IMG/VR virus record: IMGVR_UViG_3300046028_003137
Location: 1-25,407 of that record
Source of the DNA: a virus
Direction: 5' to 3' (one strand)
Length of the DNA stretch: 25,407 bases
Numbering within the stretch: the stretch's first letter is position 1; every line of letters starts with the position of its first letter. The notes under the pieces are model-generated. The model ran no database searches and was not told the origin of the DNA. It saw nothing but the letters and a program-made list of their open reading frames with translations. Shown one piece after another: positions 3,764 to 23,838 of the stretch. Made by a program: the position numbers and the translations under genes.

Positions 3764-5791
3764 TTAAAATGTTGATTGTTTTTCTAATACATTAACTCTA
3801 TTTGTCTTTGCTGATATTTCGTCTACACCAACCGTTGCATTTACTTGTATAGCTGGCATTGTAGATCCGTTACTTATCTTGTTTCCTTGCTCATCAAACC
3901 TACTACCTTCAATGTTAGCGTTTGCATTACTTACTGTTGGTGGAGCAGGTATTGGTTGTGGAGCAGGAGCAGTACCACCGCCACCTGTTGCACCGCCACC
4001 AGCAGAAAATTGACTAGCCGCTATCTTAGCAATATTTGCGGCACTTGCAACACCGACAGCGATAGCGTTGGATATTCTAAACGCTGTGGCCATAGGCTCA
4101 GGTAAAATGCTTGTTGCACTTAATGCGTTTTGAACTCCTTGGATTCCAGCAATAGTAGCCGATGCGATTTGTAGACCTTTGTTAATATCAAACTGTCTTT
4201 TAGCTTGTCTTAATTCCTCTGCACTACCTTTTTCTAAATTCTTAGTTTTAAAAAGAAAGTACATGTCTGATAAGCCTTGCAAGCTATTGATTGAGTTTTG
4301 TGCTATTTGAAACCTTGCATCTTCAACTGCTTTTTCTTTAGCTAATGCTTCTTCGTCTTTCTTTTTCTTTTCAGCAACTAATAAGGCAGTCGTTTGTTTT
4401 TCCTTTTCAATATCTGCTAGCCTTTTAGCTTCCGCATCCGCTTTCGCTTTTTCTTCGTCTGCTAATTTTTTATCCGCTATTTGTTTATCGAGTGCTTCTA
4501 CTTTTAAAACGTATTCTTGGTATGCTGAATACCTCGCTTGTTGCTTAACTGCTTCACTAGCTTTCGTTGCGTCAATCTCTTCAATAGCCTTTTGTTTGTC
4601 GAGTTCAAGTTGCATGTATGCCGCCTTGTCTCTATCACTCATTGATGCTAAACGCTCTCTCTGAATGTCGCTGAATAGTTTCTTTTCGTCTGCTAATTGC
4701 TTTTGTCTATTAGCCTCTGCTGTTGCATTGTTAGCTTTAGTTGTAGCGTCTTTTTCTTTTTGTGCGTTGGCTTCTATTATTTTGATTTCAGCTTTAGCAT
4801 CCTTAATGGCTTTCGCACTTTCTTTGATTAACTTTCTTTCTTCGTCAGTAATGGCACGTGTTTTAGCCATTTGTTCTAACTGTAAAAGATACTGTTTATT
4901 AGTTTCAATGATAGCTTTTTGTTTCTCGATTTCCATCTCGACAGTATTCTTACCCATCGCTTTGGCAACCTTAATGTTTCTATCCATTTCAGCTGTTTGT
5001 TCGCCTAATGCTTCCTTTGACTTAGTAAACGCATCAATGGCGGCCTTGCCCATAGCTTCCATATCACGTTCTGCCTTGGAAGTCAAACCAATTAAATCAG
5101 TAACTACCGTAGCCATCTTCATAGCTGTATCAACTACTTGACCAATGATGTCACCAACAAATCTTAAAGCCTTTGCTAATACACCACTACCTTTTGACAG
5201 CTCATCAAAATTTTCAATCAAATAGGTAACACCTTGCACCAATAGCATCACACCTGTAGCCGCTAATGCCGTACCCATCAATTTAGCACCTTGCGCTACA
5301 CCTTTAAAATCTAATTTTTTTAAAGAGTCACCAAACTTTGAGAAACCAGCTTCGGCTCTTTCAGCACCACCACCACTTAATGACTGATTAACCTCATCTA
5401 TCTTTTTATTTAAGCCAGCCGCTTCAATGGTTAATTCTCTAAACCTTTCAGTATTCTGTTTACCTTGACCAGCAAGCATAAACAACTCATCCTCTAATAC
5501 CTCGAATTGCTTTCTTAAATCGCCTGTTTCCTTTGCCGCCTCTTTCTCAGCTTTCGCTAAATCCTCTGCCGCCTTAGCCGCTTGCTTTTCGGTTTGAGTT
5601 ACTTCCTTTAATTGGTCATTTAACTTTTCAAGGTCTTCAATAGCTTGCTTATATTGCTCACTACCAATGTCAGAATTTTCAGCAACATCTTGAAGGTCTT
5701 TGATAGCACCTTTTAAATCTTTTATTGATGAAATGGACTTTTCAACCCCGTTAATCTCGAGTTTAAAACCTATGTCTTTATTTTCTGCCAT
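3764..5791 (-). CDS. Tail tape-measure protein, 675 aa
   Basis: The protein is dominated by long alpha-helical, charged and alanine-rich coiled coils (about 25-140 and 225-500, rich in K, E, A, D and Q). It has one hydrophobic segment at about 171-192 (LMGTALAATGVMLLVQGVTYL), a GA-rich stretch near 585-600, a Gly/Pro-rich linker (GGGATGGGGTAPAPQPIPAPP), and a C-terminal end RVNVLEKQSTF. This architecture fits tape-measure proteins, which set tail length and are ejected toward the membrane with the DNA. Tape measures of Bacteroidota phages often end in a similar 'RVxVLExdI' motif as I recall. It is short for a tape measure, predicting a short tail. The start overlaps the preceding small ORF by 14 bp. 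Confidence 0.8.
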   Translation of the reverse strand: MAENKDIGFKLEINGVEKSISSIKDLKGAIKDLQDVAENSDIGSEQYKQAIEDLEKLNDQLKEVTQTEKQAAKAAEDLAKAEKEAAKETGDLRKQFEVLEDELFMLAGQGKQNTERFRELTIEAAGLNKKIDEVNQSLSGGGAERAEAGFSKFGDSLKKLDFKGVAQGAKLMGTALAATGVMLLVQGVTYLIENFDELSKGSGVLAKALRFVGDIIGQVVDTAMKMATVVTDLIGLTSKAERDMEAMGKAAIDAFTKSKEALGEQTAEMDRNIKVAKAMGKNTVEMEIEKQKAIIETNKQYLLQLEQMAKTRAITDEERKLIKESAKAIKDAKAEIKIIEANAQKEKDATTKANNATAEANRQKQLADEKKLFSDIQRERLASMSDRDKAAYMQLELDKQKAIEEIDATKASEAVKQQARYSAYQEYVLKVEALDKQIADKKLADEEKAKADAEAKRLADIEKEKQTTALLVAEKKKKDEEALAKEKAVEDARFQIAQNSINSLQGLSDMYFLFKTKNLEKGSAEELRQAKRQFDINKGLQIASATIAGIQGVQNALSATSILPEPMATAFRISNAIAVGVASAANIAKIAASQFSAGGGATGGGGTAPAPQPIPAPPTVSNANANIEGSRFDEQGNKISNGSTMPAIQVNATVGVDEISAKTNRVNVLEKQSTF

Positions 5792-22027: not shown

Positions 22028-22339
22028 TTATAAATAGTTTAAAGTTTTTAAATGAATGTCTGATAAAATATCTGTAATATCACTAACTACTCCGCTGATA
22101 GTGTCTTTCTCATAGATCTTGATCCAGTTTTCTTCAAGCTCTGAATCAATGTCCCATTTACTTGAAACCGTTAATTTGTAAGTAAAAATAATTTTACAAC
22201 CTACAACGTAATGACTGCCAGTGAATATCTCATATCTTACTGTCATCTGTTTGTCCGCTGGAATGCGTCCGTTTGTTAGCTCATAGAACTCGATTGTAGT
22301 GTCTACAAGTCCTCTTAAATAATCTGTGTTTATTTCCAT
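22028..22339 (-). CDS. Hypothetical protein, 103 aa
   Basis: First gene of the recombination operon; its start lies only 11 bp after the T run of the kissing-loop leader B, so terminator formation could also block the start region. The sequence begins MEINTDYLRGLVDTTIEFYE and contains a beta-rich central part (VRYEIFTGSHYVVGCKIIFT) and an acidic, helical end (SDITDILSDIHLKTLNYL). No known family was recognised. The next gene, ERF, follows after 1 bp, so a helper role in recombination is possible but unproven. Confidence 0.7.
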   Translation of the reverse strand: MEINTDYLRGLVDTTIEFYELTNGRIPADKQMTVRYEIFTGSHYVVGCKIIFTYKLTVSSKWDIDSELEENWIKIYEKDTISGVVSDITDILSDIHLKTLNYL

Positions 22340-22350
22340 AATGTTAAATA

Positions 22351-22431
22351 AAAAAGCCCTTGATTAGATGTGAGAGAGTCTAACCAAAGGCTTTAATGTT
22401 TAATGTTTTACGTTTGTCGCTCTCACCCGAC
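22351..22431 (-). ncRNA. Kissing-loop leader RNA, copy B (before the ERF operon)
   Basis: Minus strand: hairpin 1 GTCG-GGTGAGAG-CGAC (22416-22431), linker with AAAACATTAA, then a 16-bp terminator stem (22353-22368 with 22379-22394) followed by six T residues. Two C-A mismatches on plus become G-U wobbles in the minus RNA. The terminator loop CTCTCTCACA contains CTCTCAC, the exact complement of GTGAGAG in loop 1 (7 bp). This is the clearest copy of the family. Confidence 0.75.
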
Positions 22432-22435
22432 GTTG

Positions 22436-22443
22436 CAAATTTA
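22436..22443 (-). promoter_or_regulatory. Promoter -7 box TAAATTTG of the ERF operon
   Basis: Exact TAnnTTTG match on the minus strand, 4 bp before hairpin 1 of leader B. A TTG (22466-22468 on plus as CAA) lies 22 nt upstream and could serve as the -33 element. The box is just beyond the stop codon of the 92-aa gene. Confidence 0.7.
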
Positions 22444-22479
22444 CAAATAATTATTTTAAAATGGACAATTTTTTCTCAT

Positions 22480-22758
22480 TTAGTGGCTTTCGTTTGGTGA
22501 TGGTAAATCTGCCGAAAATCTTTTTGCACAATCTACATATCCACGATTATATTCTCTTTCTCTAACAGCTTCTAATATTTCAGCTAAATCGTCTAAAGTA
22601 TCATCAACGGTACATCCAAATTTTCCTCTTGTTTGTAATTCTTTTTCTAATAGTTCTCTCATTTTATTTAGGTTATTTAATTTATCATTTAATTCTTTTC
22701 TCATTAATTTATGTAATTTTTCAGAAGCAACTTGTATGTAAAATGTTTTATCTATCAA
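22480..22758 (-). CDS. Small helical protein, up to 92 aa
   Basis: The frame can start at a TTG (22758) that directly abuts the 3' arm of the structured RNA at 22759-22867, or at the ATG at 22704 (74 aa, MRKELNDKLNNLNKMRELLE). The sequence is a charged helical protein with EKLHKLMRKELNDKLNNLNK and a C-terminal DDTLDDLAEILEAVREREYN. It is the last gene of the unit that starts at leader C, and it ends about 36 bp upstream of the next promoter box. No family was recognised. I slightly favour the ATG start because the TTG start has no room for a ribosome site outside the stem. Confidence 0.6.
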   Translation of the reverse strand: MIDKTFYIQVASEKLHKLMRKELNDKLNNLNKMRELLEKELQTRGKFGCTVDDTLDDLAEILEAVREREYNRGYVDCAKRFSADLPSPNESH

Positions 22759-22867
22759 GGTATAAAAAGAAATGTGGCTTGCACCGCCCGTAGCAGGGTT
22801 TGTTCTGTTGCGTCACAGAATTGACAGAGGTGCAACTTATTCCCCCATACCACACTTCTTTTATACC
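22759..22867 (-). ncRNA. GC-rich structured RNA with a long closing stem (candidate)
   Basis: Arms of 19 and 18 nt (22759-22777 and 22850-22867) form a closing stem with one bulged base and one G-U wobble that exists only in minus-strand RNA. Inside lie a 7-bp stem TTGCACC/GGTGCAA (22829-22835 with 22779-22785), a 6-bp hairpin TTCTGT-GACGCA-ACAGAA (22803-22820) and a small CCC-TGCTAC-GGG hairpin (22787-22798). The core is clearly richer in G and C than its AT-rich surroundings, which is a typical sign of functional RNA. It is not a tRNA. Confidence 0.65.
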
Positions 22868-22888
22868 CATATCGTTAGGTGCAATAAT

Positions 22889-23188
22889 TTAATCTTTTAC
22901 AAAAATTCCGTTAATTGTTTTGCCTTTTCTTTCTTTAATTACGTTGTATGCTAATTCTATACATTCAAAAAAATCATACCCTAATTGATTTGATAATATT
23001 ATCATCACGATTCCTATATCACCTAATGCATCTTTTATTTCAATTTCATTTTTTGAAATCATAGAGTTATACAATTCATTAGTTTCTTCTAATAATTTTC
23101 CAAATTGTTTAAGAGCGTTTTCTTTATGACATAAATTCCTATCATTTGCCCATTCTAATACAATTTTTGTTATTTCATTTTTTTCCAT
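22889..23188 (-). CDS. MazG-like nucleotide pyrophosphohydrolase, 99 aa
   Basis: The sequence fits a short MazG-like all-alpha NTP pyrophosphatase: VLEWANDRNLCHKENALKQF (10-29), GKLLEETNELYNSM with the metal-binding EExxE (Glu34, Glu35, Glu38), then EIEIKDALGDIGIVMIILSN with DALGD (53-57, Asp57). It ends with AYNVIKERKGKTINGIFVKD. Such phage enzymes may clear (p)ppGpp or non-canonical dNTPs, or keep up the nucleotide supply during infection. The start overlaps the HNH endonuclease stop by 14 bp. The gene is followed by the structured RNA at 22759-22867. Confidence 0.88.
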   Translation of the reverse strand: MEKNEITKIVLEWANDRNLCHKENALKQFGKLLEETNELYNSMISKNEIEIKDALGDIGIVMIILSNQLGYDFFECIELAYNVIKERKGKTINGIFVKD

Positions 23189-23735
23189 TGTAATTAATTT
23201 TTTTATGTCTTAATTTAATATTAATCATTTCATTTAAAGTATAATCTTTATTATATCTTAAAAGTAAACAACTATATGATATATTATATTTTTTAGATAA
23301 TTCTTTTAAAGAATATTTTATTCCATTTTCAAAAACATAATTTTTTGTAGCTGAATCTAATGTTTTTATTAATAAATTATTTTTTAAAGCATGTTTCATA
23401 TTTTCAGACCTTGTAATCAATTCTAAATTTTCAATAAAATTATTTTTTTTATTACAGTCTATATGATTTATATCTAATTTATTATTATAATCATTTTTAA
23501 AATTAGAATATACTAATATATGTGCTAAATATCTTTTTCTTATACAATTTTTATAAATATCATAATATATGTACCCATTTCTATTAATACTTTTAGATTG
23601 AATTTTACCTTTAAATAATCTTTTAGTTTTATTTGGATAGATTATATATCTATCTAAACTTTTTAAATTTCCATAATTACTGATTTGATAAAAACCTTCA
23701 TAGTTTTTTACATCTAACCAAATTTCATTTTCCAT
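23175..23735 (-). CDS. NUMOD4 / HNH homing endonuclease, 186 aa
   Basis: From the ATG at 23735 the protein starts MENEIWLDVKNYEGFYQISN, a NUMOD4 DNA-binding motif. The HNH core follows with LAHILVYSNF and DINHIDCNKKNNFIENLELI (His, His, Asp and Asn at residues about 72, 91, 93 and 99 from this start). The end (about 140-175) has an HTH-like NUMOD segment, GIKYSLKELSKKYNISYSCL. An upstream ATG at 23759 falls inside the stem of leader C and is less likely. The gene is markedly more AT-rich than its neighbours, which points to a recent free-standing mobile endonuclease inserted between leader C and the MazG gene. It overlaps the MazG gene by 14 bp. Confidence 0.9.
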   Translation of the reverse strand: MENEIWLDVKNYEGFYQISNYGNLKSLDRYIIYPNKTKRLFKGKIQSKSINRNGYIYYDIYKNCIRKRYLAHILVYSNFKNDYNNKLDINHIDCNKKNNFIENLELITRSENMKHALKNNLLIKTLDSATKNYVFENGIKYSLKELSKKYNISYSCLLLRYNKDYTLNEMINIKLRHKKINYNGKK

Positions 23736-23739
23736 AATT

Positions 23740-23838
23740 AAAATACCAATCCAATACAAAGGCTTATCCGACTGCTAAGTGTTAGCAAATGGCAATGTAA
23801 AGGATTGGATTTAATTAATGTTTTCATGTCGAATAAGC
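23740..23838 (-). ncRNA. Kissing-loop leader RNA, copy C (before the HNH/MazG unit)
   Basis: On the minus strand GCTTATTCGAC (23828-23838) is followed by a linker with AAAACATTAA and a terminator-like stem AATCCAAT/ATTGGATT (23748-23755 with 23804-23811). Its loop holds a 6-bp hairpin (23773-23787) and GTCGGATAAGC (23762-23772). The latter pairs with the 5' segment over 11 positions with one U-G wobble, present only in minus RNA. The tail TATTTTAATT is only partly T-rich, so termination may be weak. Confidence 0.6.

Follow-up and report, generated by a model that had tools for sequence, protein, structure and literature searches.

Downstream of MazG, the viral DNA analysed here (the window; a 25 kb IMG/VR record taken over its full 25,407 nt) carries a 109-nt segment that is richer in GC than the phage and had been predicted, from its letters alone, to fold into a multi-helix RNA. 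Is this segment a functional RNA, and if so of what kind, or is it a leader for the next gene, a DNA element or a fold produced by chance? Flavobacterium, Cellulophaga, and Olleya phages are among the named records with relatives of the window's ERF, a distribution that suggests Bacteroidota as the phylum of the hosts.

The original prediction placed the structure on the minus strand, and folding bears this out. The minimum free energy of the minus strand (-39.9 kcal/mol) was reached by 0 of 1000 dinucleotide shuffles (mean -25.2, sd 3.35, z = -4.38), and the ends of the closing stem fall exactly on 22759 and 22867 (Table 1). The plus strand folds less well (-35.4 kcal/mol, z = -3.8). A scan of the minus strand in 10-base steps ranked the element in the top two 109-nt regions for stability, the other (near 3961) lying within a coding gene. 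The closing stem, P1, has 18 pairs, one bulged U, and one G.U pair, with ensemble pair probabilities of 0.97-1.0 except near the sliding bulge; the 7-bp inner stem, P2, reaches 0.88-0.95. Both stems had been proposed beforehand, as had an asymmetric purine-rich internal loop, which is present (13 nt, AUGGGGGAAUAAG) and lies between a U.G pair and P2. Two hairpins had also been proposed. One of them, P3, stands (0.65-0.98, and rebuilt in the second type described below), but the CCC/GGG hairpin has a pair probability of only 0.53 and is not conserved. In the predicted fold the two stems and one hairpin are thus solid and the second hairpin is weak.

Table 1. Coordinates of the element, its parts and the surrounding insert in the window.
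Feature	Position	Strand	Evidence or remarks
Insert with RNA and ORF (approximate extent)	22450..22880	-	Junctions aligned with relatives
Orphan ORF, TTG start or ATG at 22704	22480..22758	-	CAI 0.81; codon use like that of phage genes
Whole structured RNA element	22759..22867	-	MFE -39.9, z -4.4; like architecture in L042/L119 and L120
P1 closing stem, 5' arm GGUAUAAAAGAAGUGUGG	22850..22867	-	Fold; compensatory change relative to L119/L120
P1 closing stem, 3' arm CCACAUUUCUUUUUAUACC, one bulged U, U-rich	22759..22777	-	Fold and pair comparison
J1/2 purine-rich internal loop AUGGGGGAAUAAG, 13 nt, kept as GnGAnUAAn	22836..22848	-	Comparison with L119/L120
P2 5' arm UUGCACC	22829..22835	-	Pairs with 22779-22785; 3 compensatory pairs
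P2 3' arm GGUGCAA	22779..22785	-	Pair comparison
P3 hairpin UUCUGU-GACGCA-ACAGAA	22803..22820	-	Fold; L119 counterpart GUAAGU-GCCUGAA-ACUUAC
Unpaired core UGCUACGGGC, directly before P2'	22786..22795	-	10/10 identical in three copies

A covariance model of the single window sequence was run over 98 sources (0.7 Mb) and returned one other match (L042, 7370-7479, 24.1 bits, E = 0.0038); the best score of the same model in 690 kb of unrelated viral DNA was 15.8 bits. Searching IMG/VR with a motif pattern recovered L119, which is the L042 contig, and L120, with zero chance matches. The RNAs of L119 and L120 are nearly identical, so the three sequences amount effectively to a comparison of two types. 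Common to both types are the core UGCUACGGGC, the loop motif GnGAnUAA, a P2 frame of UUnnnCC/GGnnnAA, a single G separating P2' from P1', and a spacing of exactly 7 nt from P3 to the core. Nearly all stem pairs differ. P1 is rebuilt in L119 as 12 bp (AUAAAAUGCCGA/UCGGCAUUUUAU), and P3 as a different perfect 6-bp hairpin (GUAAGU/ACUUAC, ~4 compensatory pairs). The covariation suggested as a check on the fold is therefore present, with 10 double compensatory changes in P1 and P2 between L119/L120 and the window; all 9 alignable P1 pairs are paired, 7 of them by doubly compensatory change. These pair counts come from a model-fitted alignment, which leans towards structure, and a slid-register control was therefore added: the alignable pairs of P1 and P2 are 100% standard in register, as compared with 43-53% paired when slid by 1-3 columns. 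MAFFT misaligns the cores, and its alignment was not used for the counts. Because the model did not score P3 in L119, that hairpin serves as an independent check. Since the stems change compensatorily while the unpaired motifs and the 7-nt spacing stay, we consider it very probable, on these sequence comparisons, that the copies form a genuine structured-RNA family, small and undescribed so far, and not a product of chance.

A U.G pair closes P1 beside the loop in both types and would read A.C on the opposite strand, in agreement with the earlier claim of a wobble specific to the minus RNA. In all three contigs the element also runs in the same direction as the genes around it. Taken together, the retained U.G pair and the shared orientation favour a sense RNA over a DNA structure. 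Few members were found in the sequences screened. A descriptor with a relaxed core (7/10), applied to 3.5 million strand-bases of partly overlapping loci, gave 29 architectures; those with a 10/10 core were all copies of the window, L119, and L120 places. The others, among the best 25 listed of the 29, lacked the J1/2 motif and matched the core at 8/10 or fewer positions. Of 106 stretches obtained with a looser motif pattern, none but L119 had the P1/P2 architecture, and a three-sequence model found no further member in 98 whole contigs and 6 Flavobacterium/Cellulophaga phages. A match in phi19:1 (14 bits, E = 0.75) was set aside as it does not contain the core. Pseudoknots from J1/2 to the 7-nt linker (GGG/CCC; UGAU/AUCA) were likewise rejected, being out of register between types.

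Comparison with known classes agrees with the earlier statement that no riboswitch, ribozyme or tRNA could be matched. Rfam 15 gave 0 matches in the window at the gathering threshold and, with the limit relaxed to E 10, only a 15-bit chance match to a CRISPR repeat (E = 6.8); the L042 copy likewise matched no Rfam 15 family, and ARAGORN found no tRNA cloverleaf or tmRNA in the element. Direct DNA similarity to annotated phages and plasmids was limited to chance matches, and exact patterns of the window sequence gave no matches or chance matches in IMG/VR. An intrinsic terminator was rejected, with no terminator-like site in 22300-23250 and with P1 closing a loop of ~72 nt, as was a MITE or repeated palindrome, the element being single copy in its own record and present once each in L119 and L120. 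The segment is also non-coding. A 40-codon frame (ATG at 22870) crosses it with a CAI of 0.45, its codon use lies below that of all 1133 gene windows of the phage (35 codons each), and the corresponding stretch of the L119 copy contains an early stop; a protein-coding segment was rejected on these two grounds.

The locus of the element differs among relatives. In the window, ~430 bp with the RNA and an ORF separate MazG from the next leader. In relatives found through MazG and the gene at 22028-22339, the MazG stop (or another gene) runs straight into a conserved promoter-leader. As to whether homologous phages lose the stems, which had been named in advance as a point against the structure, the answer is divided: ten relatives (L002, L005-L008, L010, L011, L013, L028, and L029) lack the whole insert, L002 among them although its MazG is 94% identical, and the divergent copy keeps the stems by compensatory change. 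Two further relatives, L009 and L012, hold other small genes after MazG, which identifies this spot as a cargo site.

Several other features of the locus were recorded. The region after MazG, 22448-22880, is a cargo hotspot in which the small genes vary by relative, and in L012 the MazG end GGAATATTTGTAAAAGATTAAATAAT is repeated beyond the cargo gene. A search for relatives of the orphan ORF at 22480-22758 found none. A NUMOD4/HNH endonuclease ORF (23175-23759) overlaps the MazG start. The leader of the gene at 22028-22339 (22350-22443, minus strand) contains a -7 box, TAAATTTG, followed by a hairpin, GUCG-GGUGAGAG-CGAC, then a 15-bp hairpin whose loop contains CUCUCAC, and a U run. The two loops are complementary over 7 bp (a kissing loop). 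Across 11 phages all 26 pairs are kept, with double changes at 5 stem pairs. This leader, which belongs to no Rfam family, resembles a conserved phage attenuator.

In L119 and L120, the RNA moves together with a 32-aa ORF as a 282-nt unit, 97% identical between the two contigs, and the adjoining segments differ. Six co-oriented attC-like palindromes occur in ~5 kb of L119 and three co-oriented attC-like sites in the first 1.4 kb of L120; the background in kin loci is 24 per Mb strand. The same arrays hold a Mom-family protein and a type II DNA methyltransferase. Mom-family proteins and DNA methyltransferases are known types of phage accessory genes. Given the insert that ten relatives lack, the shared unit, the differing segments next to it, and the attC-like arrays with their accessory genes, the RNA is, as judged from the compared contigs, mobile and optional cargo among phage accessory genes. 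The integron-like arrays extend over 8840-14700 in L119 and 120-1700 in L120, with no integrase seen and many orphan small ORFs. The 32-aa hydrophobic ORF (MKKYTYRDLKIAFLLGSILSSLLHILIVEFFF; L119 10663-10758) directly precedes the RNA in both cassette copies and is like small membrane toxins only in its general type. At L119 9259-9862, the halves of what is seemingly one attC-like palindrome (TATAACGGTTTCGGGCTTGGC ... GCCAAACCCGTGTTATG) have an HNH-like endonuclease gene between them, as if it had been inserted in the palindrome's loop.

Our preferred, tentative reading is that the element serves the phage as an accessory noncoding RNA, transcribed along with its operon and acting via the conserved unpaired core. 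A Bacteroidota-type promoter (TTTG...TAnnTTTG) was found in neither type directly upstream of the element, so there is no indication of an independent transcript, and the element would be transcribed in the sense direction within the operon mRNA. The RNA would then fold into P1, the asymmetric purine loop, P2, and a hairpin-bearing junction, a fold that would present the invariant single-stranded motifs GnGAnUAA and UGCUACGGGC. It may be released from the mRNA by processing or may act in place, its unpaired core binding a molecule of the infected cell, be it a protein, an RNA or a ligand, and not regulating the adjoining gene. A binding or catalytic core is indicated because invariant unpaired bases sit amid freely changing stems; a dedicated riboswitch is not, because no constant gene follows the RNA. 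The trans-acting mechanism itself is advanced with slightly more reserve. The broader proposal, a class of phage-borne accessory RNAs moved by cassettes beside anti-restriction genes and acting in trans in counter-defence or host takeover through the 10-nt core, with the stems free to change, is speculative and in our judgement unlikely.

The main rival, which we regard as somewhat unlikely, is control in cis, by a leader or intercistronic element (riboswitch-like or acting on translation), of the small gene next in the cargo unit. Its appeal lies in position, both types having a stop codon before the element and a possible start codon no more than ~55 nt after it: in the window a TTG at 0 nt (22758, touching the 3' arm as had been noted) or an ATG at 54 nt, and in L119 an ATG at 31 nt with an A-rich stretch before it. 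Invariant unpaired bases beside changing stems are, moreover, typical of aptamers. However, the downstream ORFs are unrelated between types. The L119/L120 element lies between the 32-aa ORF and an attC-like site, and the frame downstream of it enters that site and differs between the two contigs. Neither contig has a relative of the window's downstream ORF, which leaves the control of the next gene suggested by the original prediction unsupported. With unrelated neighbours in the only two types known, a constant place before one gene family is not seen, and no alternative fold, terminator-like or obviously start-masking, was found for the element.

A small self-cleaving ribozyme that trims phage mRNA, with an unpaired core and interchangeable stems, would by analogy be short, with three helices and strictly conserved unpaired nucleotides on the sense strand of phage intergenic DNA, as is the element. 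We nonetheless consider this improbable, since no Rfam ribozyme was matched at the gathering threshold or up to E 10 and the three sequences suggest no cleavage site. To our knowledge, the combination of the core UGCUACGGGC with an 11-13 nt one-sided loop fits no named small self-cleaving ribozyme.

It is quite improbable that the element works at the DNA level, as a single-stranded hairpin for the recombinase (attC-like or other) that moved the cargo. The strand does fold as DNA (-19.8 kcal/mol, z = -3.4), the L119/L120 copies lie in an integron-like cassette array, and a GTTAGGT box is found a few bases outside the window copy. The conserved parts, however, are unpaired inner motifs and not R''/R' boxes. 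An attC site was rejected, as no R''(RYYYAAC)/R'(GTTRRRY) boxes occur at the element's ends and no GTTRRRY/RYYYAAC pair flanks P1, which ends in GGTATAAAA/TTTTATACC in the window and ATAAAATGCC/GGCATTTTAT in L119. In L119/L120, an attC descriptor finds sites beside the RNA and not the RNA itself, the hairpin sits inside the 282-nt moved unit and not at its border, and the sense-strand U.G pair is kept in both types. Finally, a functionless chance fold of a GC-rich foreign insert would suit an RNA that is rare (three sequences only) and GC-richer than its phage, but is strongly disfavoured, and most improbable, given the z-score, the complete compensatory change, and a second type with identical core and spacing.

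The element thus defines a compact RNA family by sequence. It has no Rfam match, and the compensatory change that supports it is complete across its two divergent types. Its carriers are phages of a phylum in which little work has been done on phage RNAs. Its movement as cargo, in some contigs within integron-like cassettes next to genes for DNA modification, offers a testable case for phages trading functional RNAs, not genes alone. The Rfam 15 candidate structured RNAs from bacteria and metagenomes are alike in having covarying stems round conserved unpaired bases in intergenic DNA; unlike them, the element matches no family, has been found only in phage contigs, and has no constant neighbour. 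The hammerhead, twister, twister-sister, pistol, and hatchet ribozymes are similar in size and general anatomy, but none matched. CALINs, arrays without an integrase, have been reported from phages, a Polaribacter phage among them (Qi et al. 2023, PMC9892861). Departing from these, structured RNA as cassette cargo was not found in the literature searched, and the window copy lies outside any recognisable attC array, the RNA itself being no attC site. What L119 and L120 share with phage CALINs is the attC-like array of short cargo units, one of which here holds the RNA.
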